In this document: piece by piece, positions 49,645 to 62,509 of the stretch | Numbering within the stretch: position 1 is the first letter of the stretch | How the letters are laid out: every line of letters begins with the position of its first letter | NCBI RefSeq assembly: GCF_000092645.1 | Contig: NC_014165.1 | Span: 1,178,001-1,242,000 of the forward strand | DNA from: Thermobispora bispora DSM 43833 | GTDB lineage: Bacteria > Actinomycetota > Actinomycetes > Streptosporangiales > Streptosporangiaceae | Reading direction: 5' to 3' | Length of the DNA stretch: 64,000 nt | Position numbers and translations under genes: made by a program | Notes under the pieces: generated by a model | What the model saw: only the letters and a program-made list of their open reading frames with translations | Told to the model about the DNA's origin: nothing | Database searches by the model: none

Positions 49645-50799
49645 TCAGCCCCGGTCCGATCCCGCGCCCGGGCCGTGCCCGGTCGCCGCGATCGCCTCGG
49701 CGATGGCCTTCAGCCGGGCGGCCGAGGCGAGCCCGGCGTGGTACCAGTGGATCTCGGCGGCCCCGGCCGCGCGGTACGTCTCGGCCAGCCGGGCGAGGGC
49801 GGCGCCGTCCGCGGGCCGCGGGGGCAGGGCGAGCAGGTAGGCGCCCACGCGCGGGCCGAGCCGGCCGAGCGCGCGCAGCCCTTCGGTGTCGGTCTCCGGC
49901 GCCCCCCAGCAGCTCCCCACGAGCAGGTCCACGTCCACCCCCTCGGGCACGGTGGCGAACGGGCCGGTCGCCCACGGGTCGGCGCTGGCGTGGAGGGTGA
50001 TCGGGATCCCGGGCCGGACCGACCTCGCCTCGGCGATCAGCAGGTCGCGCAGCTCCCCGGCGAGCCCGGTCCGCAGGTCGCGCACGGTCTCCGCCATGTC
50101 GCCGAGGGCGTCCTCCACCGACACGGGCGCCCCGTCGACCCCGGCCCGCACCCGGGAGCGCAGCTCCGGGACGTCGAGCCCGGCCGACTCGTACCGGGCG
50201 CGGCAGGCCGCGCAGAAGCAGAGCGACAGCAGCGCCGTCTGCACGGGCGACCAGTCCGCGCCGTCGGTCTTCTCGTGGTGGCCGCCGTGCTTGAACCCGA
50301 GCGCCCCGCACGCCTCCAGGATCAGCGCGTCGGGGGCGCCGAGCTCGACCACCTCGTGGACCAGGGTGCGGCAGTACTCCCGCACGTCGGCCGCTGCCGG
50401 GCAGAGCGCGTACGGGTACGGCTCGCCGAAGGCGTTGGTGACCACCAGGTCGGGCGCGGACGAGCCGAGCACCGAGTTGTGGGTGAGCACGGTCCAGGCG
50501 TGCACGGGCAGGCCCTCGGCGCGCAGGGCGTCGCGGGCCTCGCCGAACGGGTCGGCCGAGGACATCCAGGCCGGCCGGGGCGGGACGAGCCGGTGCCCGC
50601 GCCAGGCCTCCTCCCGGACGGGGACGTAGCACGCGGCGTGCACGTCGACCAGCCGGTGCTCGGGGTGGTGCGGGGTCGCCGCCCGCGTGGTGTGGTAGGC
50701 GGCGGCGAGCGCGACCGCGTCGGCGCCGAGCGCCTTCAGGCGGCCGGGGGCCGCGGGGTCGCCGACGATGTCCCAGGGGTAGGCGTAGACGACGTTCAC
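49645..50799 (-). CDS. Unrecognised cytosolic protein, possibly a glycoside-hydrolase-like barrel
   Basis: 384 residues, no signal peptide. I do not recognise the family. It begins VYAYPWDIVGDP with a substrate-like PGRLKALGADAVALAAAYHTTRA segment; VHAWTVLTHNSVLG and DALILEACGALGFKHGGHHEKT look like barrel strands with acidic and His residues; CFCAACR resembles the CFC-C motif of some putative glycoside hydrolases. The GTG at 50799 overlaps the glucarate-dehydratase-like gene by 4 bases (GTGA), so it belongs to that operon as its last gene. Inference: it acts on an oligo- or acid-sugar intermediate of pectin breakdown. An alternative is a lactonase- or isomerase-like enzyme. Confidence 0.6.
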   Translation of the reverse strand: MNVVYAYPWDIVGDPAAPGRLKALGADAVALAAAYHTTRAATPHHPEHRLVDVHAACYVPVREEAWRGHRLVPPRPAWMSSADPFGEARDALRAEGLPVHAWTVLTHNSVLGSSAPDLVVTNAFGEPYPYALCPAAADVREYCRTLVHEVVELGAPDALILEACGALGFKHGGHHEKTDGADWSPVQTALLSLCFCAACRARYESAGLDVPELRSRVRAGVDGAPVSVEDALGDMAETVRDLRTGLAGELRDLLIAEARSVRPGIPITLHASADPWATGPFATVPEGVDVDLLVGSCWGAPETDTEGLRALGRLGPRVGAYLLALPPRPADGAALARLAETYRAAGAAEIHWYHAGLASAARLKAIAEAIAATGHGPGAGSDRG

Positions 50800-52055
50800 C
50801 AGAATCCTCTCCGGGTGGAAAAGCTCGGATCGAAGCTCCGCATGTATCCTTCGTCGTCCCGGGTGCGGATGCCACAGCGCTCGTACTGCTCGTGCATGAC
50901 GGCGAGCGCGTCGCGGTCGAGCTCCACGCCCAGCCCGGGCCCGTCCGGCACGGGGACGGCGCCGTCGACGAACCGCAGCGCGCCCGGCGCGACCACGTCC
51001 TGCCCGTCCTGCCACGGGGTGTGCGTGTCGCAGGCGTGGGTGATCGCCGGGGTGGCGGCGGCGAGGTGGGTCATGGCGGCGAGGCTGATCCCCAGGTGCG
51101 AGTTCGAGTGCATCGACAGCTCGATGCCGAACGTGGCGCACAGCGTGGCGATGTGCGCGGAGCGCACCAGCCCGCCCCAGTAGTGGTGGTCGATGAGCAG
51201 CACCCCGATCGGCCTCCGCTCCACGGCCGCGGGCAGGTGCTCGGGGGTGACCACGCACATGTTCGTGGCGAGCGGCATGGGCACCTCGGCCGCGACCCGG
51301 GCCATGCCGTCGATCCCCGGGGTGGGGTCCTCCAGGTACTCGAGCACGCCGTCGAGCGCGCGGCCCACCCGGATCGAGGTCTCCACCGTCCAGGCGGCGT
51401 TCGGGTCCAGCCGCAGGGGGAGGCCGGGGAACGCGTCCCGGAGGGCCTGGATCGCCTCGGCCTCCTGCTCGGGCGGGAACACCCCGCCCTTGAGCTTGAT
51501 GGAGCGGAAGCCGTACTCGCCGATGAGCAGGCGGGCCTGGGCGACGATCCCGTCGGGGTCGAGCGCGGGGCCGAAGCGGTCCTCGGGCTTCCCGGGGTGG
51601 CCGGCCCACTTGTAGAAGAGGTAGGCGCTGTACGGCACCGCGTCCCTGACCTTGCCGCCGAGCAGGTCGGCCACGGGCCGCCCGGCCGCCTTGCCCTGGA
51701 TGTCGAGGCAGGCGACCTCGAACGCGGCGAAGACCCGGTCGACGGTCTTCACCCGGCTGGAGGAGCCGGTGAGCCCGTGCATGTCGGTGACGATGTTCGC
51801 GCCGACCACGTCGGCCACCCGCCGGTAGATGCGGTGCAGCGCGTAGACGTCGAGCCCGGGGAGCCGCGCGGCGGCGGCGCGGACCTGCTCGAGGTGGGCG
51901 AGGTCGCCGTAGGTCTCGCCCAGGCCGGTGATGCCCTCGTCGGTGACCACCTCGACGATGGTGCGCAGCGCCCATGGCTGGTGCACGCCGGCGGCGTTGA
52001 GCAGCGGCGGGTCGCGGAACGCCACCGGGGTGACGCGGACCTCCCGGATCAGCAT
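50796..52055 (-). CDS. Glucarate-dehydratase-type enolase-superfamily enzyme
   Basis: Expected to dehydrate glucarate (or galactarate) to 5-dehydro-4-deoxyglucarate. 419 residues. The glucarate dehydratase active-site set is complete: K187/K189 in KLKGG, metal ligands D217 (LDPNAAW), E242 (LEDPTPGIDG) and N265 (TNMCVV), and the acid/base pair D289 (LLIDHHYWGG) and H316 (MHSNSHLG). It starts at ATG 52055, overlapping the stop of the KDG dehydratase gene by 7 bases. It is upstream of the unknown gene in the same operon. Confidence 0.85.
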   Translation of the reverse strand: MLIREVRVTPVAFRDPPLLNAAGVHQPWALRTIVEVVTDEGITGLGETYGDLAHLEQVRAAAARLPGLDVYALHRIYRRVADVVGANIVTDMHGLTGSSSRVKTVDRVFAAFEVACLDIQGKAAGRPVADLLGGKVRDAVPYSAYLFYKWAGHPGKPEDRFGPALDPDGIVAQARLLIGEYGFRSIKLKGGVFPPEQEAEAIQALRDAFPGLPLRLDPNAAWTVETSIRVGRALDGVLEYLEDPTPGIDGMARVAAEVPMPLATNMCVVTPEHLPAAVERRPIGVLLIDHHYWGGLVRSAHIATLCATFGIELSMHSNSHLGISLAAMTHLAAATPAITHACDTHTPWQDGQDVVAPGALRFVDGAVPVPDGPGLGVELDRDALAVMHEQYERCGIRTRDDEGYMRSFDPSFSTRRGFW

Positions 52056-52954
52056 CCGGCGATCTCCAGTCCCTTGGCGATGAGACGTTCCAGCCGGGCG
52101 ATGTGCTCCGGCGTGGGGTCGACGAGCGGTGGCCGGACGGAGCCGGCGTCGATGCCGCGGAGGGTGACGCCCGCCTTGATCAGCGCCACCGCGTACCCGG
52201 GCACCTGGTCGCGCAGCTCGACGAGGGGGCGGTAGAACTCGGTGAGGAGACGCTGGGCGAGCTTGTCGTCGCCGCCGGTGAGCGCGCGGTAGAAGGCGAG
52301 CGCCACCTCGGGGAGGAAGCCGTACACGGCGGAGGAGTAGAGGGGCACGCCGAGCCCGCGGTAGGCGTGCGCGGTCATCTCGGCCGTGGGGAGCCCGTTG
52401 ATGAAGAGGAGCTCCCGGTCGGTGGCCCGCCGTACCGCGAGGAGGATCCGCTGGAACAGGTCGATGTCGCCGATCCCGTCCTTGAACCCGACCACGTTGG
52501 GAAGCCCGGCGAGGCCGGCGGCCGCGTCGGGGGTGAGCCGGGCGTTGCCGCGCAGGTAGACGATGAGCGGCAGGTCGGTGGCGGCGGCGAGCTCGCGCAC
52601 GTAGCGGGCCACGCCCTCGGGCGGGGCGCTCACCAGGTAGGGCGGCATGACGAGCAGCCCGTCGGCGCCGGCCGCGGCCGCCCGCCTGGCGCACTCGCGG
52701 GCGTACGGCAGGGAGCCGCCGGCCCCGGAGAGGACCGGGACCCGGCCCGCGGTGGTCTCGACGGCGACCCGCACCACGCGCTCGTACTCGTCCGCGTCGA
52801 GCGCGTGGAACTCGCCGGTGCCGCAGGCGGCGAAGACCCCACCGGCCCCCTTGGTCACTCCCTGGTCCACGTGCCGGGCGAGCATCTCCTCAGCGAGCCT
52901 CCCGTCGCCGCCGAACGGCGTGACCGGGAAGAAGAGAACCCCCTCGAGGTGCAT
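52049..52954 (-). CDS. 5-dehydro-4-deoxyglucarate dehydratase (DapA-fold)
   Basis: Dehydrates and decarboxylates 5-dehydro-4-deoxyglucarate to 2-oxoglutarate semialdehyde (EC 4.2.1.41). 301 residues of the DHDPS/NAL TIM barrel, with the family-specific N-terminus LFFPVTPFGGDG, GTGEFHALDADEYERVV, and the Schiff-base lysine in VVGFKDGIGD. First gene of the minus-strand operon; ATG 52954. Its promoter region faces the udh operon and carries a degenerate copy of the island's operator. Confidence 0.9.
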   Translation of the reverse strand: MHLEGVLFFPVTPFGGDGRLAEEMLARHVDQGVTKGAGGVFAACGTGEFHALDADEYERVVRVAVETTAGRVPVLSGAGGSLPYARECARRAAAAGADGLLVMPPYLVSAPPEGVARYVRELAAATDLPLIVYLRGNARLTPDAAAGLAGLPNVVGFKDGIGDIDLFQRILLAVRRATDRELLFINGLPTAEMTAHAYRGLGVPLYSSAVYGFLPEVALAFYRALTGGDDKLAQRLLTEFYRPLVELRDQVPGYAVALIKAGVTLRGIDAGSVRPPLVDPTPEHIARLERLIAKGLEIAGC

Positions 52955-53108: not shown

Positions 53109-53122
53109 TTCACATAGCAGAA
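53109..53122 (-). promoter_or_regulatory. Degenerate copy of the pectin-island operator
   Basis: TTCA-N6-AGAA on the plus strand (minus strand: TTCT-N6-TGAA) matches the inner part of the 23-bp element with one mismatch; the outer half-site (GGGA) has two. It is placed for control of the glucarate operon. Confidence 0.3.
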
Positions 53123-53197
53123 CCTCGTCCCTCCTTATGTACATCACGACGGTAGGAATCGGGAAGAGGCGCCGTCAAGGGAGCTGAGTCGCATATC

Positions 53198-53220
53198 TGA
53201 ATGAGATTCACTCTTGTGAA
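53198..53220 (+). promoter_or_regulatory. Pectin-island operator, copy A (udh promoter)
   Basis: TGAA (53198-53201), N5, TTCA (53207-53210), N6, TGAA (53217-53220). It overlaps a TTGTGA that may be the -35 box, fitting repression. The same pattern occurs at 57176-57198 and 57323-57345. Confidence 0.65.
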
Positions 53221-53292
53221 CAGAACCGAATCCTGCCAGACTGGCGACTCCAGCGGACAGTGAACGGACCACCCGCCGAAACGAGGAGGCTC

Positions 53293-54096
53293 ATGCGGAT
53301 TCTCATCACCGGTGCTGCGGGCGGCGTCGGCACGCTGCTGCGCCCCCGCCTGGCCCGGCAAGGGCGGGTTCTGCGCCTGCTCGACATCGCCCCGATCGAG
53401 GCCGGACCGGGCGAGGAGGCGGTGACCGCCGACATCACCGACCCCAAGGCCATGGCCGAGGCGATGGACGGCGTCGACGCGGTGCTCCACCTGGGCGGGC
53501 ACAGCCTGGAACGGGCGTGGGAGGAGATCCTCCACGTCAACATCCACGGCACCTATGTGGTGCTCGAGGCGGCGCGGAGGGCCGGGGTACGGCACGCGGT
53601 GCTGGCGAGCAGCAACCACGCGGCCGGCTTCCACCCCCGGTCGGCCGGGGAGGCCCCTGACTACCTCTTCCCCCGCCCGGACACCTACTACGGCGTGAGC
53701 AAGGTCGCGGTCGAGGCGCTCGGCTCGCTTTACCACGACCGGTACGGCATGCACGTCACCTGCCTGCGGATCGGCTCGTGCTTCGAGCGGCCCAAGGACA
53801 CCCGCATGCTCTCCACCTGGCTCTCCCCGGACGACTGCGCCCGCCTCGTCGAGGCGGCGCTCACCGCCGAGGGGTTCCACGTCGTCTGGGGCATCTCGGC
53901 CAACACCCGGCGCTGGTGGTCGCTCGAGGAGGGCCGCGCCATCGGCTACGAGCCGCAGGACGACGCCGAGGTCTTCGCCGCCGAGCTCATCGCCGAGCAC
54001 GGCGAGCCGGACCCGGAGGACATCGCCCACCGCTACCTGGGCGGCGCGTTCTGCGGCCCCCGGTACCACGCCGACAACCTGACGGGGGGACGGTGA
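53293..54096 (+). CDS. Uronate dehydrogenase (NAD-dependent)
   Basis: Oxidises D-galacturonate / D-glucuronate at C1 to the aldaric-acid lactone with NAD+, cytoplasmic. 267 residues, short SDR of the extended type as in characterised Udh proteins. Motifs are the cofactor site ITGAAGGVG, LHLGGHSLERAWEEIL, the catalytic Ser in LASSNHAAGFHP, and Tyr/Lys in TYYGVSKVAVEALG, all Udh-like. GAGGAGG sits 5 bases before the ATG at 53293. The aldehyde dehydrogenase follows 1 base later. The glucarate operon is divergent. Confidence 0.88.
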   Translation: MRILITGAAGGVGTLLRPRLARQGRVLRLLDIAPIEAGPGEEAVTADITDPKAMAEAMDGVDAVLHLGGHSLERAWEEILHVNIHGTYVVLEAARRAGVRHAVLASSNHAAGFHPRSAGEAPDYLFPRPDTYYGVSKVAVEALGSLYHDRYGMHVTCLRIGSCFERPKDTRMLSTWLSPDDCARLVEAALTAEGFHVVWGISANTRRWWSLEEGRAIGYEPQDDAEVFAAELIAEHGEPDPEDIAHRYLGGAFCGPRYHADNLTGGR

Positions 54097-54097
54097 G

Positions 54098-55570
54098 ATG
54101 GGCGCCGGGGACGCGGGAACGGTGACCCCGGCCGGCGGGGCCGCGACCGCCGCGGAGGCGGTGCGCGAGGCGGTCGAGCGGGCGGCCGCGGCCTGGGAGG
54201 CCTGGCGCGCGGCCGGCCCGGCCGGGCGGGCCCGGGCGCTCGAGGCCGCCGCCGAGGCGCTGCTCGACCACACCGAGGAGCTCTGGCCGGTCGCCGACGC
54301 CGAGACCCACCTCGGCGAGACCCGGCTGCGCGGGGAGATCGCCCGCACCGCGGCGCAGCTGCGGCTCTTCGCCGGCGTGCTGCGCGACGGCGGCTACCTG
54401 GAGGCCACCATCGACCACCCGGACCCGGAGGCGACCCCGCCCCGCCCCGACGTGCGGCGGATGAACCACCCCATCGGGGTGGTGGCGGTGTTCGCGGCGA
54501 GCAACTTCCCGTTCGCCTTCTCCGTCGCCGGCGGGGACACCGCGTCGGCGCTCGCGGCCGGCTGCCCCGTGGTGGTCAAGGCCCACGAGGGGCACCCCAA
54601 GACCTCCGAGCTCACCGCGTCCGTGGTACGGCAGGCCCTGCCCGACCCCGCCCTGCTCGGCCTGGTGCACGGCTTCGAAGCGGGGGAGCCGCTGGTCACC
54701 CACCCGCGCGTGGCGGCCGTCGGGTTCACCGGCTCGCTCGCCGGCGGCAAGGCGATCCAGGCGCTGATCCGCCGGCGGCCGGACCCGATCCCGTTCTACG
54801 GCGAGCTGGGCAGCGTCAACCCGGTGATCGTGCTGCCGTCCGCCGACCCCGCCGCGGTCGCCGAGGGGTTCGCCGCCTCGCTCACCCTGGGCGTGGGCCA
54901 GTTCTGCACCAACCCCGGCCTGGTGTTCGTCCCGGCGGACCGGCCCGAGTTCGAGCGGGCGATCGCGGACGCGGTCGCCAAGACCACGGGCGGGCGGATG
55001 CTCACCGCGAAGATCCGCGACGGCTACCTGCGCGGCGTGGACCGGATCGCCGGCGCCGGCCTCGCCGTGCTCGCCCGAGGGCGGGCCGGGAGCGCGCCGG
55101 ACGCGGTCGCCCCGCAGGTTTTCGTCACCGACCTGGACGCCTTCGCCGCCGGGCTGCCCGCGCTGGCGGAGGAGTGCTTCGGGCCCGCCTCGATCGTGGT
55201 CCGGTACGGTGACCCGGCCGAGCTGCCCGCCGTGCTGCGCCGGCTGCCCGGGTCGCTCACCGCCACCGTGCACGCGGCGAGCCCCGGCGAGGCGGGCGGG
55301 CTCGTGCCCGTGCTCGAGCGGCTCGCCGGCCGCCTGATCTGGAACGGCTGGCCGACCGGCGTCGCGGTCTGCTGGGCCATGCACCACGGCGGGCCGTGGC
55401 CGGCCACGACCTCGGCCGCGCACACCTCGGTCGGCGCCGCGTCGATCAAGCGCTGGCTGGTGCCGGTGGCCTACCAGGACTGGCCGGCCGAGCTGCTGCC
55501 GCCCGAGGTACGGGACGGCAACCCCCTCGGTGTCCCGCAGCGGGTGAACGGGCGGCTGGTGCGCCCGTGA
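54098..55570 (+). CDS. 2-oxoglutarate semialdehyde (2,5-dioxovalerate) dehydrogenase
   Basis: NADP+-linked aldehyde dehydrogenase expected to make 2-oxoglutarate, the last step of the aldarate route. 490 residues. ALDH motifs: VVAVFAASNFPFAFSVAGGD, GCPVVVKAHEGHPKTSEL, catalytic Glu E236 in FYGELGSVNPV and Cys C270 in VGQFCTNPGLV. This N-terminal and FxASNFP pattern is typical of alpha-ketoglutaric semialdehyde dehydrogenases. The ATG at 54098 is 1 base after udh, so the two are coupled. Confidence 0.9.
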   Translation: MGAGDAGTVTPAGGAATAAEAVREAVERAAAAWEAWRAAGPAGRARALEAAAEALLDHTEELWPVADAETHLGETRLRGEIARTAAQLRLFAGVLRDGGYLEATIDHPDPEATPPRPDVRRMNHPIGVVAVFAASNFPFAFSVAGGDTASALAAGCPVVVKAHEGHPKTSELTASVVRQALPDPALLGLVHGFEAGEPLVTHPRVAAVGFTGSLAGGKAIQALIRRRPDPIPFYGELGSVNPVIVLPSADPAAVAEGFAASLTLGVGQFCTNPGLVFVPADRPEFERAIADAVAKTTGGRMLTAKIRDGYLRGVDRIAGAGLAVLARGRAGSAPDAVAPQVFVTDLDAFAAGLPALAEECFGPASIVVRYGDPAELPAVLRRLPGSLTATVHAASPGEAGGLVPVLERLAGRLIWNGWPTGVAVCWAMHHGGPWPATTSAAHTSVGAASIKRWLVPVAYQDWPAELLPPEVRDGNPLGVPQRVNGRLVRP

Positions 55571-55753
55571 CCGGCGCCGGGCCCGCCGCCGGGCGGGCCC
55601 GGCCGTCACGGGGCCGCCGTGAGGCCGCCGCGGGGCCGTCACGGGGCCGGCGCGGGCCGCCCGGCGCGCGGGCGCCCGCCCGGCGGGGCCGGACGGGCGC
55701 GGAAAGGGGCCGTGGGGGAGAGGGCCTGTGACGCGGGCGTCCGATGGGCGCCG

Positions 55754-57064
55754 TCAGAGCAGGCGGCCGGCGCCCGCGTGGGCGGCGACCTTCGCGGCGA
55801 CGGACGGCGCCGGGTCGATCTTGGTGTACCGGGTCGGCGTCCAGCCGGCGTCGGTGCCGAGGTCGGGGTCGTTCGCCGCGTTGTAGACGCCGATCAGGTC
55901 GATCGGCTGGAGCCTGCCGTCGATGCGCGCCACGTTCTCCCGGGCGGTGAGCGCGGTCCCACCCCAGTCGTGGAGCAGCGTGGCCGGGTTCACGCCCTTG
56001 CCCAGGTGGAAGTGGTTCCGCTCGGCGTAGATCTGCGACTGGACGCCCACGCCGAGCGCGTAGACGAACGTGCCCGGGTCGGGGATCTCGTAGGAGTTGT
56101 TGTAGACGTGGACCTTGCCGAAGCGGACGCGCGGCAGCCGCTGGAGCGTGTTCGTGAACCGGTTGTGGTGCACGGTCACGTTGAGCTTGCCGGCGTCGTT
56201 CGCGGGGTTGTCGGTCGAGCCGATCAGCATGGTCTTGTCATGGTCGGCGAAGACGTTCCATGACACCGTCACGAGGTCCGACCCGTTGGTGATGTCGAGC
56301 TGGCCGTCGTGCACCTGGTACGGCCGGCCGAAGTAGTGCGGCTGGGCCGAGTCGGGGTTGTCGCCGTCGGTGAACGTGTTGTGGTCGATCCACACGTTGG
56401 TGGACCGGGTCACCGAGATGCTGTCGTAGGCCGAGTTCCAGTTGCCCTCCGGGCCGTCGGTCGGGTCCCACTGGGGGAAGCAGTCCGCGGCGTCCTCGAA
56501 CCGGATGTTCCGGATGATCACGTTGCGCGCCTGGTCCACGCGCAGGTTGAGGTGCCGGATCACCGCGCCGGGCAGGCCGACGATCGTGGTGTCCGAGGGC
56601 ACCCGCAGCACGATGTCCGCGGCCTGCGCGGCCGCGGAGGCGGCCCGCGCCTCCTCGAGCGGCCCGGACGGTTCCCGGTCCCGCCCCCAGACCTCCGGGT
56701 CGTAGGCGGCGAGGTAGGCCTCGAGGGAGTACCCGTTCCGGACGTAGTCCGCGCAGGTCTTGCCGGTGTCGATCACGCCCTTGACGTAGATGATCCGCGG
56801 CCCGGGCGCGGCGAGGGCGGCGGCGAGCCCGTCCCGGTCCGTGACCACGTGGATGTTCTCCCGGGGCGCGCCGGATCCACCGGTCGTGCCGCCGTTCGCC
56901 GAGGCCCAGCCGTCGTTCGGGGGCAGGGTCTCGTGGCCGAGCCGCCAGGCCTTGCTGCCCGGCCGGAGCGGGTCGTGCTCATCGGCGGCCTGGGCGGCCG
57001 GCGCGCTCATGGCCGCCACGGTGACCGCGATGGCGGCCGGCAGGAGGACGGCTCGTGCACGCAT
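55754..57064 (-). CDS. Secreted pectate lyase, PL1 family
   Basis: Extracellular beta-helix lyase that cuts de-esterified pectin by beta-elimination. Precursor 436 residues with a signal peptide ending AQA (about residue 28). Landmarks: NVWIDHNTFTDGD (the vWiDH motif), VTVHHNRFTNTLQRLPRVRFG with the catalytic Arg, and VHVYNNSYE. Of two adjacent ATGs (57067, 57064) I take 57064; AAGGAGG lies just upstream. It faces the ABC operon across 300 bases that hold two operator copies and a long hairpin. Confidence 0.95.
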   Translation of the reverse strand: MRARAVLLPAAIAVTVAAMSAPAAQAADEHDPLRPGSKAWRLGHETLPPNDGWASANGGTTGGSGAPRENIHVVTDRDGLAAALAAPGPRIIYVKGVIDTGKTCADYVRNGYSLEAYLAAYDPEVWGRDREPSGPLEEARAASAAAQAADIVLRVPSDTTIVGLPGAVIRHLNLRVDQARNVIIRNIRFEDAADCFPQWDPTDGPEGNWNSAYDSISVTRSTNVWIDHNTFTDGDNPDSAQPHYFGRPYQVHDGQLDITNGSDLVTVSWNVFADHDKTMLIGSTDNPANDAGKLNVTVHHNRFTNTLQRLPRVRFGKVHVYNNSYEIPDPGTFVYALGVGVQSQIYAERNHFHLGKGVNPATLLHDWGGTALTARENVARIDGRLQPIDLIGVYNAANDPDLGTDAGWTPTRYTKIDPAPSVAAKVAAHAGAGRLL

Positions 57065-57127
57065 CATGCCTCCTTCCCGCGGTCCCCGGCGCGGGACCGC
57101 GTCGGGATCGGGGGGTGGGCGGCCCGG

Positions 57128-57164
57128 CCCGGGTGTGGTGTGGCGCGGGCACACCACACCCGGG
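57128..57164 (-). promoter_or_regulatory. 15-bp perfect hairpin in the pectate-lyase leader
   Basis: CCCGGGTGTGGTGTG (57128-57142) and CACACCACACCCGGG (57150-57164) pair exactly over 7 bases. It starts 64 bases upstream of the lyase start. It could stabilise the secreted enzyme's mRNA or attenuate transcription. Confidence 0.6.
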
Positions 57165-57175
57165 GGCCACATCCA

Positions 57176-57198
57176 TGAATCACGTTCATGTCCGTGAA
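57176..57198 (-). promoter_or_regulatory. Pectin-island operator, copy B (pectate lyase promoter)
   Basis: TGAA (57176-57179), N5 TCACG, TTCA (57185-57188), N6 TGTCCG, TGAA (57195-57198): identical spacing to copy A. Confidence 0.65.
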
Positions 57199-57275
57199 AC
57201 GTAACCGGACCGTACGGCGTGAGCGCGCGGCGGTCAAGACCCACGCGAATGTCCGATCGCTTCCGGAATTGGGCC

Positions 57276-57281
57276 TTGACA
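57276..57281 (+). promoter_or_regulatory. -35 box of the ABC-transporter operon
   Basis: A perfect consensus TTGACA. The matching -10 is weak (around 57300-57306). The next operator copy lies just downstream, where a bound repressor would block the polymerase. Confidence 0.45.
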
Positions 57282-57322
57282 ACTTTTGGGGTGGCCGAGC
57301 ACCGTTGATCCGTCCACGTTTG

Positions 57323-57345
57323 TGAACGCCATTCAGAAGTGTGAT
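57323..57345 (+). promoter_or_regulatory. Pectin-island operator, copy C (ABC operon)
   Basis: TGAA (57323-57326), N5 CGCCA, TTCA (57332-57335), N6 GAAGTG, TGAT (57342-57345): the same three half-sites with one change in the last. It is 17 bases before the start codon at 57363. Confidence 0.6.
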
Positions 57346-57362: not shown

Positions 57363-58229
57363 GTGGTGGCGTTGCGCCGCAGGGCGGTGCCCTACCTGCT
57401 GATCTCCCCGACGGTCGCGCTGATCGCGGCCTTCCTCGCCTACCCCATCGCCAGCGTGGCGTACTACAGCCTCCAGCACCGCAACCTGATCCGGCCGTGG
57501 GCGGACGGGTTCGCCGGGCTGGAGAACTTCCGCCGGATGCTCTTCGAGGACGAGCTCTTCTGGCAGAGCCTCGTCTTCACGGCGAAGTGGGTGGTCACCG
57601 AGGTGGGCCTGCAGTTCGTCCTCGGGCTCGCGCTCGCGCTCATCGTCAACGAGACCTTCATCGGACGAGGGCTCGCCCGGGCGCTCGTCTTCTCCCCGTG
57701 GGCCGTCTCCGGCGTGCTCACCACGGGAATCTGGATCCTGCTCTACACGCCCGGCACCGGGGTGCTGCGCTTCCTCGGCCACCCCGAGGCCGCCCCGCTC
57801 GGCGATCCCGACGCGGTCTTCCCCGCCGTCGTCCTGGCCGAGCTGTGGCGGGGCGTGCCGTTCTTCGCGATCCTGCTCCTCGCCGGCCTCCAGGGCATCC
57901 CCGGCGAGCTCTACGAGGCGGCCTCGGTGGACGGGGCCGGGCGCATCCGCCGCTTCATCCACATCACGCTGCCCCACCTGAAGGACGCGATCGTGCTCGC
58001 CACGCTCCTGCGCTCCGTCTGGGAGTTCAACAACGTCGACCTGCTCTACACGCTCACCGGCGGCGGGCCCGCGCACCTCACCACAACGCTCCCGCTCTAC
58101 GTGGCGCAGCGCGCCATCGACGCCAAGGACTTCGGGTACGGCTCCGCGCTCACCATGGCCGGCTTCGCGATCCTGCTCTTCTTCTCGATCCTCTACCTGA
58201 GGGTCACCAGGTTCGGAGGTGAGCGGTGA
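57363..58229 (+). CDS. CUT1 ABC sugar transporter, permease 1
   Basis: MalF-type inner-membrane subunit, 288 residues with six membrane helices. The EAA loop for ATPase contact reads EAASVDGAGRIRRFIHITLPHL (cited in part). GTG 57363 has GGAGG 7 bases upstream. First gene of the operon permease-permease-binding protein-enolase-IclR; its stop overlaps the next GTG. Probably imports oligogalacturonides or uronates. No ATPase gene is present. Confidence 0.92.
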   Translation: MVALRRRAVPYLLISPTVALIAAFLAYPIASVAYYSLQHRNLIRPWADGFAGLENFRRMLFEDELFWQSLVFTAKWVVTEVGLQFVLGLALALIVNETFIGRGLARALVFSPWAVSGVLTTGIWILLYTPGTGVLRFLGHPEAAPLGDPDAVFPAVVLAELWRGVPFFAILLLAGLQGIPGELYEAASVDGAGRIRRFIHITLPHLKDAIVLATLLRSVWEFNNVDLLYTLTGGGPAHLTTTLPLYVAQRAIDAKDFGYGSALTMAGFAILLFFSILYLRVTRFGGER

Positions 58230-59122
58230 CCCCGGGCGTGAGCGCCGACGTGATGACCCGCCCGCCGCAGGCCGCGCGGGCGGCGACCTCGCGGGCACGG
58301 CGCCGGGCCATGCGGGACCCCGGCCGGGCGCTGCGGCTCTACCTGCCGCTCGCCCTCTACCTCGCCTTCACCCTGGTCCCGTTCTACTGGATGATCTGCT
58401 TCGCGCTGCGGCCCTCCGGGTCGACCTCGCTCGTGCCGTGGCCGATCACGTTCGAGAACTTCGAGACCGTCTGGAACGACATCGGCTACGCGGTGTTCTT
58501 CAAGAACAGCGTGATCGTCGGCGTGTGGTCGCTGCTCGCCACCACCGTGCTCGCCCTGATGGGCGGCTACGCGCTGGCCCGGTACCGGTTCCGCGGGCGG
58601 ACGCTCTTCATGATCGTCCTGCTCTGCAGCCAGTTCATCCCCGGCGCGATGCTGCTCATCCCGCTCTTCTCGATCTTCAAAGGGCTCGGCCTGATCAACA
58701 ACCTGTGGAGCCTCATCATCGCGGACACGGTGTTCAACCTGCCGCTGTCGATCATCCTGATGAGCGGCTTCATCACCGCGGTGCCGTACACGGTGGAGGA
58801 GGCCGCGATGGTGGACGGCTGCACCCGCCTGCGGGCCTTCTTCGCCGTGGTCCTGCCCCAGCTCCGCCCGGGACTGATCGCGGTCGGGTCGTTCGCCTTC
58901 ATCCACACCTGGAACAACTTCCTGTTCGCGCTCATGTTCATGAGCCGGGAGGACGGGTTCACCATCCCGGTCGGGCTGAGCTACACGATCGGGGAGTACA
59001 GCGCCGACTTCGGAGCGCTCGCGGCCGGGGGCGTCGTCGCCGCGCTCCCCGTGGTCCTGGTGTTCGCCGTGATCCAGCGCTATCTCGTGCGCGGGATCAG
59101 CGCCGGTGCGGTCAAGGGATGA
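58226..59122 (+). CDS. CUT1 ABC sugar transporter, permease 2
   Basis: MalG-type subunit, 298 residues. After a disordered N-terminus come six membrane helices, with the EAA loop EEAAMVDGCTRLRAFFAVVLPQL (cited in part). The GTG at 58226 overlaps the first permease by 4 bases. The substrate-binding lipoprotein follows 19 bases later. Confidence 0.92.
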   Translation: MTPGVSADVMTRPPQAARAATSRARRRAMRDPGRALRLYLPLALYLAFTLVPFYWMICFALRPSGSTSLVPWPITFENFETVWNDIGYAVFFKNSVIVGVWSLLATTVLALMGGYALARYRFRGRTLFMIVLLCSQFIPGAMLLIPLFSIFKGLGLINNLWSLIIADTVFNLPLSIILMSGFITAVPYTVEEAAMVDGCTRLRAFFAVVLPQLRPGLIAVGSFAFIHTWNNFLFALMFMSREDGFTIPVGLSYTIGEYSADFGALAAGGVVAALPVVLVFAVIQRYLVRGISAGAVKG

Positions 59123-59141
59123 CTCCCCCTGGAGGAACCAG

Positions 59142-60452
59142 ATGAGATCCACTCAGAGCACCGCCGTGGGGCGCCGCCTCCTGCGCGCGGCGGCCTGCGC
59201 CCTCCTCGCCGTGATCGTCGCCGCGTGCGGCTCCACCGGCCCCAGCGAATCGGGCAAGGTGACGATCACCTTCTGGGACAACAACGGGGGCGTCCGGACC
59301 CCGATCTACAAGGAGCTGATCAAGCGCTTCGAGCAGGCCAACCCGGACATCCGCGTCGAGTACGTCGGCATCCCCATCTCCTCGGTCCAGCAGAAGTACG
59401 ACACCGCGGTCGCCGGCGGGGACACCCCGGACGTCGGCGGCGTCACCACCTCCTACCTCGCCAACCTCGTCGGCCAGCAGGCCCTCGAGCCGGCCGAGGA
59501 CTGGCTCGCCAAGAGCTCGGTGAACGGCAAGCTCGCCCCCGCCATGCTCGAGGCCGCGCGCAAGGCCTCCCCGGACGGGAAGCTCTACCTGGTCCCGAAC
59601 ACCTCCAACCTGGACGTGATCTGGTACCTCAAGGACCGGCTTCCCGAGCCGCCGAAGACCTGGGACGAGTTCTTCGCCGCGGCCGACCGGCTGACCAAGG
59701 CCCCCGACGAGTACGGCTACACCATCCGCGGCGGCGCCGGATCGATCTTCCAGATCCTCGCCGAGATGTACGCCTACTCGGGCGTGACCGAGTTCTTCGA
59801 CGCCTCGGGCAAGAGCACGGTCAACCACCCGGACAACGTCGAGTTCCTCACCAAGATGGCGGCGATCTACAAGAAGAACACCCCGGCCGCCGACGTCACC
59901 AACGACTTCGCCAAGATGGTCGCCCAGTTCGGCACCGGCAAGATCGCGATGATGCACCACAACCTGGGCTCGTACAACGACCACGTGAAGGCCCACGGTG
60001 CCGACAAGATCGGCGCGGTCGCCCTCCCGGTCGGCCCGTCGGGGCGGCGCACGATCGTCGCCAACCCCGTCGACGGCTTCGCGGTCTTCAAGAACAGCGA
60101 GCACAAGGAGGCGGCCTGGAGGTTCGTCGAGTTCCTCGTCTCCCATGAGGCCAACAGCTACTGGAACGAGCAGGTCGGGCAGATCCCCGCGAACACCGAG
60201 GCCCAGGCCGACCCGTGGGTGTCGCAGCTCCCGCACCTGAAGATGGCCGTCGAGACCCTCGAGGACCCGAACACGGTGGTGGTCTCGCCGCCCTACCACC
60301 TGCCGCAGTTCTCCTCGATCACCAAGTCCGAGACCGAGCCGCTCTTCCAGAAGGTGCTGCTCGGCGAGATGCGGCCCAAGGAGTTCCTCGACACGCTCGC
60401 CCAGAAGCTCACCGACGCCCAGGCCGAGTGGAACCGGGCCCAGTGCGGATGA
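59142..60452 (+). CDS. Sugar-binding lipoprotein of the ABC transporter
   Basis: Extracytoplasmic substrate-binding protein (family 1), 436 residues. The signal ends in the lipobox VAAC near residue 29. The mature fold has VTITFWDNNGGVRTPIYKELIKRFEQANPDIRV (cited in part), PDVGGVTTSYLANLV and a C-terminal domain (GPSGRRTIVANPVDGFAVFKNSE). ATG 59142, GGAGG 7 bases upstream. Substrate inferred from context as pectin-derived oligomers. A hairpin follows. Confidence 0.92.
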   Translation: MRSTQSTAVGRRLLRAAACALLAVIVAACGSTGPSESGKVTITFWDNNGGVRTPIYKELIKRFEQANPDIRVEYVGIPISSVQQKYDTAVAGGDTPDVGGVTTSYLANLVGQQALEPAEDWLAKSSVNGKLAPAMLEAARKASPDGKLYLVPNTSNLDVIWYLKDRLPEPPKTWDEFFAAADRLTKAPDEYGYTIRGGAGSIFQILAEMYAYSGVTEFFDASGKSTVNHPDNVEFLTKMAAIYKKNTPAADVTNDFAKMVAQFGTGKIAMMHHNLGSYNDHVKAHGADKIGAVALPVGPSGRRTIVANPVDGFAVFKNSEHKEAAWRFVEFLVSHEANSYWNEQVGQIPANTEAQADPWVSQLPHLKMAVETLEDPNTVVVSPPYHLPQFSSITKSETEPLFQKVLLGEMRPKEFLDTLAQKLTDAQAEWNRAQCG

Positions 60453-60526: not shown

Positions 60527-61690
60527 ATGGCGGTCATCGAACGCGTCGTGGTGACGGTCTTCACCACGGTCACCCACTCCTACGTCGACGAGCACGGGCA
60601 CCGGCACCCCGGGCCGCCGCGCGAGGTGACGGAGGCGCTGCTGACGATCACCGACGCCGACGGGGCCTCCGGCCACTGCCTCACCAAGCCCGACACCGTG
60701 CGCGAGGCGGTGGTCGGCGGCTACCTCGGCCCCGCGCTGCTCGGCGAGGAGGGGTTCGACCGGGAGCGGCTCTGGCACCGGATGGCCCGCCGGCAGCGGG
60801 GCTCGCAGGGCGCGTTCTCCGACCGCGCGCTCAGCGCGGCCGACCAGGCGCTGTGGGACCTCGCCGGGCGCCGGCTCGGCCTGCCGGTGTGGCGGCTCCT
60901 CGGCGGCGCGCGGGCGGAGGTGCCCGCGTACGCGAGCACCATGTGCGGGGACGACATCCCCGGCGGGCTCGCCACCCCCGAGGACTACGCGAACTTCGCC
61001 AAGGAGCTGGTGGCCCGCGGGTACCGCGCCATCGAGCTGCACACCTGGATGCCTCCGCTCCCGCACGGGGTGGACCGGGACATCGCGGCGTGCACCGCGG
61101 TGCGCGAGGCGGTCGGGCCGGACATCGAGCTCATGCTCGACAGCTACCACTGGTACTCCCGGTCCGAGGCGCTCACCCTCGGCCGGGCCCTCGACGAGCT
61201 CGGCTTCGCCTGGTTCGAGGAGCCGATGGAGGAGGCCTCGGTCCAGTCCTACCGGTGGCTCGCCGAACAGCTCCGCACGCCGATCATCGGCCCGGAGACC
61301 GCGTGGGGCAAGCACATGGCGCGGGCCGAGTGGGTGGTGGCCGGGGCCTGCGACATCCTCCGGGTGGGGGTGGTCGGGTCCGGCGGCATCACCCCCGCGC
61401 TCAAGGCCGTCCACCTCGCCGAGTCGTTCGGCATGGACTGCGAGATCCACGGCAACGGCTCGGGCGCGCTCGCCGTGATCGGCGCCACCCTCAGCGGGCG
61501 CTGGTACGAGCGGGGCCTGCTCCACCCGCACTCCGACTACGACACGCCACCGCCCCACCTGCGCTCGATCGTCGACCCCCTGGTGGACGGGAAGGTCCGG
61601 ATGCCCACGGCGCCCGGGCTCGGCGACGACATCGATCACGATTACATCGCGGCCCGCACCGTGGCGACCTGGGAGAGCCGGCTCCGCTAG
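60527..61690 (+). CDS. Enolase-superfamily (mandelate-racemase-like) protein with atypical active site
   Basis: 387 residues with the enolase-superfamily capping domain (VWRLLGGARAEVPAYA) and barrel. Metal ligands are intact: D205 (LMLDSYHW), E231 (WFEEPM) and E257 (GPETAW). The usual KxK acid/base pair reads E170-L-H172 (AIELHTWMPP) and the Asp partner of H308 (EIHGNGSG) is Gly281. So this is not a classical dehydratase; galactarate-dehydratase-III-type or related acid-sugar chemistry is possible. ATG 60527 with GAGG upstream. It lies between the binding protein and the IclR gene. Confidence 0.85.
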   Translation: MAVIERVVVTVFTTVTHSYVDEHGHRHPGPPREVTEALLTITDADGASGHCLTKPDTVREAVVGGYLGPALLGEEGFDRERLWHRMARRQRGSQGAFSDRALSAADQALWDLAGRRLGLPVWRLLGGARAEVPAYASTMCGDDIPGGLATPEDYANFAKELVARGYRAIELHTWMPPLPHGVDRDIAACTAVREAVGPDIELMLDSYHWYSRSEALTLGRALDELGFAWFEEPMEEASVQSYRWLAEQLRTPIIGPETAWGKHMARAEWVVAGACDILRVGVVGSGGITPALKAVHLAESFGMDCEIHGNGSGALAVIGATLSGRWYERGLLHPHSDYDTPPPHLRSIVDPLVDGKVRMPTAPGLGDDIDHDYIAARTVATWESRLR

Positions 61691-61735: not shown

Positions 61736-62509
61736 GTGGCGGGAACGGTGCCCCACGTCAAATCGGCGCTCCGGACGGTCGAACTGCTGGACTTCTTCGC
61801 CCAGCACCCCGGGCTGCACAGTCTCACCGACATCCACGGCAAGCTCGGCTACCCGAAGAGCAGCCTCCACGCGCTGCTGCGGACCCTCGTCGACCTGGGC
61901 TGGGTGGAGACCGACGCCACCGGAACGCTCTACCGGATCGGCATGCGGGCCCTGCTCGTCGGCGCGACCTACATCGACGGCGACGCGGTCGTCCAGCTCT
62001 CCCGGGACGCGCTCGACTGGCTGGCCGAGGCGACGGGGGAGACCGTCCACCTCGCCCGGCTCGACCACTCCGACGTCGTCTACCTCGCCACCCGGGCCTC
62101 CCGCCACTACCTGCGGCCGTTCTCGCGCGTCGGCCGCCGCCTCCCGGCGAGCACCACCGCGCTGGGCAAGGCGATCCTGGCGACCCGCGACGACGAGGAG
62201 GTGCTCCGCATCCTGCCCGCCGAGCTCCCCAGGCTCACCCGGAACACGATCGTGGACCGGGACGAGCTCCTCGCCGAGCTGCGGGAGATCCGGGAGCGCG
62301 GGTACGCGATCGACCGGGAGGAGAACACCGAAGGGCTGCGCTGCTTCGGCGTCGCCCTGCGGCTCACCGACCCGCCCCGGGACGCGATCAGCTGCTCGAT
62401 CCCGGTGCCGCGGCTCACCCCGGACCGGGAGCAGGACATCGTCGCCTGCCTGATCGAGGCGCGGGAGCGGATCGAGCGCCTCCTCATGCGGGAACGCCGA
62501 GCGATCTAG
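61736..62509 (+). CDS. IclR-family regulator of the pectin island
   Basis: 257-residue regulator: winged helix at residues 8-70 (VKSALRTVELLDFFAQHPGLHSL, PKSSLHALLRTLVDLGW) and an IclR effector domain after 85 (GETVHLARLDHSDVVYLATR, TALGKAIL, REENTEGLRCFGVAL). The GTG at 61736 is used. Some IclR proteins (for example PcaU) bind three half-sites spaced by 10 bp; the island's 23-bp element has that shape, so I propose this protein binds it. It has no copy of the site just upstream of itself and is probably co-transcribed with the enolase-family gene. Confidence 0.92.
   Translation: MAGTVPHVKSALRTVELLDFFAQHPGLHSLTDIHGKLGYPKSSLHALLRTLVDLGWVETDATGTLYRIGMRALLVGATYIDGDAVVQLSRDALDWLAEATGETVHLARLDHSDVVYLATRASRHYLRPFSRVGRRLPASTTALGKAILATRDDEEVLRILPAELPRLTRNTIVDRDELLAELREIRERGYAIDREENTEGLRCFGVALRLTDPPRDAISCSIPVPRLTPDREQDIVACLIEARERIERLLMRERRAI

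Follow-up and report, generated by a model that had tools for sequence, protein, structure and literature searches.

The stretch analysed here, a 64-kb window (64,000 nucleotides, positions 1178001-1242000 of the single-contig Thermobispora bispora DSM 43833 genome of 4,189,976 bases), contains an island of genes for a kdgD-type dehydratase, two enolase-type dehydratases, a probable uronate dehydrogenase (udh), an aldehyde dehydrogenase (aldh), a pectate lyase (pel), a sugar ABC transporter and an IclR-family regulator, flanked by RNase J-like and FtsK-like genes (the latter two named by eye). In its two divergent intergenic regions, kdgD/udh and pel/ABC, we found four copies of a 33-bp element. 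By comparing DNA and protein sequences among related genomes, we consider it very likely that these are tandem four-half-site operators of the island's own IclR protein, which is predicted to bind them, most likely as a repressor.

The initial annotation had noted the pattern TGAA-N5-TTCA-N6-TGAW (W being A or T) with equal spacing at three promoters of the island, and the sequence confirms it, with exact sites at 53198-53220 (TGAATGAGATTCACTCTTGTGAA), 57176-57198 (TGAATCACGTTCATGTCCGTGAA) and 57323-57345 (TGAACGCCATTCAGAAGTGTGAT). With at most one mismatch allowed, the window gives four matches and 100 dinucleotide shuffles of it give none. Across the whole genome the exact pattern has only these three matches, all in the island, where base composition predicts 0.012, so the concern that the pattern might be common elsewhere did not hold; with at most one mismatch, nine places were found in the genome versus two for a reversed control pattern. 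A chance origin of the sites was ruled out by the shuffles, the genome-wide counts, the expectation of 0.012 and the matrix scores given below. The annotation was right about the three boxes and their spacing, and it had missed the position of a fourth box as well as an additional operator, at 53109-53141.

An extra box lies 10 bp to the left of each reported site (TCCA at 57313, GCCA at 57166 and a degenerate GTCG at 53188), which makes four box positions at 10-9-10 bp steps and an element of 33 bp, TTCA-N6-TGAA-N5-TTCA-N6-TGAA. We scanned GTDB species genomes with the IclR protein and used the best 80 of the 143 stretches encoding a relative. These are 22 loci (L034-L055), comprising 21 Streptosporangiaceae-type records at 79-84% identity and one Rugosimonospora at 68%, and 58 loci (L056-L113) at 64-68% identity from 55 Streptomyces, 2 Wenjunlia and 1 other actinobacterium, hereafter the Streptomyces group. 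In the first set, the ABC promoter resembles TCCACGTTTGTGAACnnnGTTCAGAAATGTGTC, and its TCCAC box is kept in 16/16 permA promoters compared; the udh region is represented by TTCATATACGTGAATCAGAGTCAGGATTGTGAAC, with TTCA or GTCA as box 1 in every region compared but L045 (10/11). The left box being kept in relatives, a further half-site therefore precedes the three first described. Gene order differs in the Streptomyces group, where iclR is divergent from aldh in 57/58 loci, and the region upstream of iclR reads GTTCGATATGCTGAACGCTGTCTCTGATGATGAA or a variant of it, with TTC-N8-GAA in 58/58 loci (shuffle maximum 5) and GAA-N16-GAA in 57/58.

The published classification of IclR binding sites distinguishes group 1 (GKTYCRYW3-4RYGRAMC) from group 2 (TGRAACAN1-2TGTTYCA) sites (Suvorova and Gelfand 2021, PMC8222616), and against this scheme each of the four operators contains one copy of the strict TYC-N8-GRA palindrome, with a second copy that departs from the strict form in each. 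The inner pair GRA-N5-TYC is present in 4/4 operators, and the group 2 spacing GRA-N7/8-TYC in 0/4. On these three counts, the best reading of the element is a tandem of two IclR group 1 palindromes (TTC-N8-GAA) whose centres are 19 bp apart, the conspicuous inner palindrome being their junction. The centre distance of 19 holds in all four operators and lies inside the 18-22 nt published for tandem sites, which were predicted in 94 orthologous groups for groups 1 and 2 together (PMC8222616). When offsets 14-30 were compared, 19 also gave the best sums in the window, and it had 44 positions in the 22 loci that do not belong to the Streptomyces group, versus at most 10 for any other offset.

The layout first proposed was a three-box operator of the PcaU type, that is, one palindrome plus an external direct half-site. 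Boxes 2, 3 and 4 are indeed strong in the three sites first reported, and PcaU, PobR and HmgR operators do have an external direct half-site; three-box IclR sites of this kind, which combine one group 1 and one group 2 pair, were predicted in 32 orthologous groups (PMC8222616). We nevertheless regard such a layout as improbable here, given that the leftmost box is kept in the permA and udh regions and upstream of iclR in the Streptomyces group, that the inner pair is spaced by N5 and not by the N7/8 of group 2 in all four operators, and that the island's IclR protein scores below the PcaR/PcaU/PobR cut-off (TIGR02431: 124.1 versus a cut-off of 284.75 bits). The three-box class was rejected on the group 2 spacing, which occurs in none of the four operators. 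As far as its sequence goes, the operator matches the tandem group 1 sites of the published scheme and departs from three-box sites in one of the features tested.

With a symmetrised tandem matrix, derived exclusively from 51 distinct iclR-promoter sites of the Streptomyces group, the four operators are the four best-scoring places of the window, and these are the three sites of the initial annotation and the new 53109-53141. Operator 1 (53188-53220; GTCG CATATC TGAA TGAGA TTCA CTCTTG TGAA) lies in the udh promoter region and scores 26.7; operator 2 (57166-57198; GCCA CATCCA TGAA TCACG TTCA TGTCCG TGAA), at the pectate lyase promoter, 24.0; operator 3 (57313-57345; TCCA CGTTTG TGAA CGCCA TTCA GAAGTG TGAT), at the promoter of the ABC/enolase/iclR operon, 26.7; and operator 4 (53109-53141; TTCA CATAGC AGAA CCTCG TCCC TCCTTA TGTA), in the kdgD-udh intergenic region towards kdgD, 23.1, all four without an assigned strand. 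The next score in the window is 10.6, and the best score in 60 shuffles of it 18.8. Applied to the 80 loci, 58 of which (L056-L113) are the training set, the matrix found 141 sites scoring at least 17, in 79 loci, versus 1 in reversed sequences; the 22 loci outside the Streptomyces group hold 51 sites scoring at least 19, in 21 loci, with 0 in the reversed control. A four-box element scoring at least 17 is also present in 12/12 of the kdgD-udh regions examined in the Streptomyces group. A sequence-only model, R1, drew its 40 sites entirely from other species, with L035-L054 supplying 25 and the Streptomyces group 15, and the window contributed none. A search of the whole genome with R1, in which 150 of 313 first-look candidates were scored, gave seven matches at E ≤ 10, each of them at one of the four operators, with operator 3 as the sole strong match (E 3.4e-4 and 0.03).

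The motif and the IclR protein occur together. Among 60 relatives, R1 at E ≤ 0.05 matches 4 genomes, and the same four have an IclR orthologue at 63% identity or more. In 250 family genomes, paired across the motif and protein searches by equal tallies and handles, R1 at E ≤ 0.01 matches 29 (27 first-look candidates scored per genome), and an IclR orthologue (E ≤ 1e-90, identity at least 65%) is found in 41. Both are present in 28 genomes, the motif alone in 1, the IclR alone in 13 and neither in 208 (Fisher 5e-26, a value that overstates the association, since the counts are not independent: the genomes are relatives of one another, and kin of theirs supplied the sites for the model). In the single motif-only genome (G259), the motif lies between gudD and aldh, and the same uronate locus encodes a 45%-identical IclR with a second motif copy just upstream of its gene (matrix 24.2, R1 E 0.23). 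Eleven homologues have less than 60% identity; six of these, at 50-54%, were examined by locus and five, at 38-48%, were left out. In each of the six loci the best tandem matrix match (19.7-32.2) is no more than 400 bp from iclR, to one side or the other, and exceeds the score of every one of 60 shuffles. The recognition-helix sequence GYPKSSL(H/Y) is kept in 86/89 IclR loci (of which L025 and L044 are probably the same locus), and the departures, L028, L030 and L031, are all among these six homologues. The initial annotation had placed an IclR gene at 61736-62509, as we confirmed, and had proposed its product as the protein that binds the sites; by the co-occurrence in 28 of 29 motif-bearing genomes, the copies upstream of iclR in 58/58 Streptomyces-group loci and the island-only model matches, that predicted binding is strongly supported.

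Among the R1 matches listed for the 250 family genomes, 13 places are on contigs other than that of iclR (G259 aside, and with two copies on G248:C66 counted as one). G248:C66 is a fragment with permA and kdgD and carries both of these copies. Nine of the other 12 adjoin a pectate lyase gene (PF03211 or PF00544; L130, L131, L133-L137, L139 and L142), all nine with a ricin-type lectin domain, and in these the operator lies over or just before the predicted start codon, the genes being simple open reading frame calls. One further copy (L132) is next to the gene of a CBM2 protein whose beta-helix match is weak and under the cut-off, and no pectate lyase was found adjoining the copies at L138, which has a LacI-type gene on one side, and L140, which is at a contig end.

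Promoter-like elements stand in front of operators 2-4. These are TTGACA-N18-CACCGT for the ABC operon (57276-57305, plus strand), which is conserved in relatives, TTGACC-N17-TACGGT for the pectate lyase gene (57209-57237, minus strand) and TTGACG-N18-TACCGT for kdgD (53149-53178, minus strand). The distance from the sigma70-like -10 to the operator is 7 nt for operator 3, 7 nt for operator 4 in the kdgD direction and 10 nt for operator 2 in the pel direction. Of the 51 sites in the 22 loci that are not of the Streptomyces group, 37 follow a -10 at a distance of 3-13 nt, which is exactly 7 in 22 cases, compared with 9 of 12,000 control windows (both sides of 6,000 random positions). As the operators would cover the presumed transcription start, their position fits a repressor, and the IclR protein most likely acts as one at these operators.

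Operator 1 is arranged differently: a promoter-like element precedes it in neither direction. A candidate udh promoter, TTGTGA-N17-CAGACT (53214-53242, plus strand; weak, found by eye and unscored), has its -35 inside box 4 of operator 1, so that the operator lies upstream of the candidate -10 and overlaps the candidate -35. IclR proteins can be activators, and the protein might bind here and activate, or both repress and activate, at the udh promoter. We think this unlikely, although it is the least unlikely of the alternatives weighed here, as at the other three operators a -10 box stands upstream, which puts them in a position for repression.

Several observations weigh against the interpretation as IclR operators of four half-sites. 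Some boxes are weak (the first of operator 1, GTCG, and the third and fourth of operator 4, TCCC and TGTA), and the Streptomyces-group training sites were chosen with a four-box template. An unsymmetrised matrix ranks operators 1, 3 and 4 on top and operator 2 outside the top 12, and the R1 matches other than operator 3 are individually weak (operator 1: E 0.09 and 0.28; operator 2: E 0.19; operator 4: E 0.23 and 0.35), in searches that scored the partial sets of first-look candidates given above. Upstream of Streptomyces-group iclR, TTC-N5-GAA and TTC-N9-GAA are also enriched, in 31/58 loci each, and this region is therefore conserved beyond the motif. The promoter arrangement is missing at 14 of the 51 relatives' sites, namely four Microbispora udh-region sites, three in L050, one in L055 and six between iclR and ftsK. 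The 51 include seven sites between iclR and ftsK (L049, L050, L052, L053 twice and L054 twice), which were counted though taken for other elements, and one of them, L050:17005, is among the 37 promoter-linked sites. R1 at E 0.05 gave no match in G006, G007, G009 and G028, which have 50-54% homologues, and a further genome with such a homologue, G057, has one R1 match, at its other, 63%-identical iclR.

The 13 of 41 IclR-bearing genomes without the motif at E 0.01 likewise count against the pairing. Ten of them give matches at E ≤ 2 (G219 at 0.04, the others above 0.2, at places mostly unchecked); of two of the 13 that were examined by iclR locus, G157 has a matrix match of 21.6 just upstream of iclR and G194 has one only upstream of ftsK. 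These genomes could reflect a different regulator, either an IclR paralogue or a protein coded elsewhere, with the sites merely travelling with the locus. The T. bispora genome has eight IclR_C matches in seven or eight proteins, so another IclR could share the site, and the relatives' loci were collected via iclR, so that its neighbours travel with it. The genome searches, however, began from DNA and not from protein and yet matched almost only iclR-bearing genomes; the motif is still at iclR itself in the Streptomyces group, where gene order differs; and the remote pectate-lyase copies occur in genomes with the IclR. For these reasons we regard a different regulator as very improbable, the least probable of the alternatives considered.

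If the island's IclR protein is the regulator, two dimers, probably as one tetramer, would bind next to each other on the same face of the DNA. The four operators would serve four putative transcription units, kdgD-gudD, udh-aldh, pel and ABC-enolase-iclR, with operators 2-4 covering the presumed transcription start and operator 1 possibly overlapping the udh -35. The protein would leave the operators when an intermediate of pectin or uronate breakdown, the presumed inducer, binds to it. The iclR gene starts 45 bp after the enolase gene, and we found no operator in this gap, either by R1 or among the matrix top places listed, so control of iclR would run through operator 3; with its gene at the end of the row behind that operator, the regulator would control itself.

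The genes behind the operators were assigned as follows, the names udh, aldh and gudD being based on domain matches, context and similarity by eye. On the minus strand, the KdgD-like 5-dehydro-4-deoxyglucarate dehydratase (52049-52954) is above the cut-off of NF002958 and below that of TIGR03249, and it is accompanied by an enolase-superfamily sugar-acid dehydratase, gudD (50796-52055; MR_MLE N and C domains), and a conserved protein of about 400 residues (49645-50847, start approximate; no Pfam match), which has homologues in many relatives' loci and is a candidate new uronate or pectin enzyme. On the plus strand lie udh, an NAD-dependent epimerase/dehydratase gene (53293-54096; PF01370, below NCBIfam cut-offs), and aldh (54098-55570; PF00171, below NCBIfam cut-offs among the rows listed), which probably encodes an alpha-ketoglutaric semialdehyde dehydrogenase. 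The pectate lyase gene (55754-57067, minus strand; PF00544) faces away from the sugar ABC transporter genes for two permeases and a binding protein (57363-60452, plus strand; PF00528 twice and SBP_bac_1), behind which come the second enolase-superfamily sugar-acid dehydratase (60527-61690, plus strand; MR_MLE N and C domains) and iclR (61736-62509, plus strand; HTH_IclR and IclR_C). This gene set resembles what we take to be the oxidative uronate route through udh, and seemingly not the isomerase route.

A second kdgD-like gene, 52-57% identical to that of the window, was found between pel and the ABC operon in Microbispora, Planotetraspora and Sphaerisporangium loci (L036, L039, L040, L042-L044, L046 and L048; also L026, L049 and L054), and it is absent from that place in the window. 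Other conserved elements were seen in the relatives' loci. TCCATTACATGAAACATCATGTCAATACATAGA and variants are conserved about 70-200 bp upstream of ftsK in Sphaerisporangium loci (elements of this type at L049:16069, L051:14749, L053:16118 and L054:16204) and have a weak matrix likeness, though this is seemingly a different motif. TTCATGTAATGGAATCTGATTTCATGTGCTGCA and variants are repeated between iclR and ftsK (L052:12757, L053:14216, L054:14355 and L148:9141) and are possibly the operator of a different regulator. In some loci of the Streptomyces group, an A+T-rich conserved TCTGATTATAAGGAGACGTTTGACTATCTCAAA lies about 9.8 kb from iclR (L078:33, L089:205, L091:114, L092:208 and L110:207).

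The IclR protein itself has both family domains above cut-off (PF09339, 56.9 bits; PF01614, 129.5 bits) and is below the cut-offs for BhcR, KdgR, PcaR/PcaU/PobR, IclR and AllR. Of the proteins with a solved structure, the KdgR effector domain matches it best in sequence (1ysp, E 8e-27); membership of KdgR was rejected at 124.7 versus a cut-off of 275 bits (NF011671). We found no described IclR-type uronate regulator of Actinobacteria among the matches listed from searches of the open-access literature aimed at one, and the supplement of PMC8222616 may already contain a prediction of it; PMC12772271 links another Streptomyces IclR to xylan promoters and allantoin, and PMC13273656 concerns PheR. 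Taken together, we lean slightly towards a broader interpretation, that this protein is an undescribed master repressor of pectin and uronate use common to several actinobacterial orders, parallel but not orthologous to KdgR, which would read a 33-bp four-box operator (19-bp centres, inner spacing 5, outside the published three-box class) and control scattered pectate lyases, uptake, the oxidative uronate pathway and itself. The predicted regulator-operator pair and its regulon would bear on pectin and uronate use in Actinobacteria, many Streptomyces included, and biosensors for uronic or aldaric acids could use the four-box element as a part. What looks like a three-box site in one genome can prove to be a four-box tandem once relatives are compared, which bears on the interpretation of IclR 'three-box' sites in general.

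Among known systems, TtgV offers the example of an IclR-family operator with four half-sites. It resembles the present protein as an IclR-family operator binder and differs in effector and genes. In the TtgV structure (PDB 2xro), recognition helices contact the operator on strongly bent DNA, and TtgV is cited as a case of tetramer binding (PMC8222616). Gammaproteobacterial KdgR is alike in its IclR family, in its pectin and galacturonate genes and in its effector domain, the best solved-structure match; its box, given as RWWGAAACGNCGTTTCAKKA in PMC8222616, can be read as a single palindrome with group 2 spacing, unlike the tandem predicted here. The three-box operators of PcaU, PobR and HmgR share the alternating half-sites, the IclR family and the outer direct repeat, whereas the present operators have four boxes, an inner N5 instead of the group 2 N7/8 and another half-site sequence. 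The closest likeness is to the tandem group 1 sites of PMC8222616, which have the same TYC-N7/8-GRA palindromes and centres 18-22 nt apart, the predicted operators described here being distinguished by the half-site TTCA/TGAA and an offset of 19.

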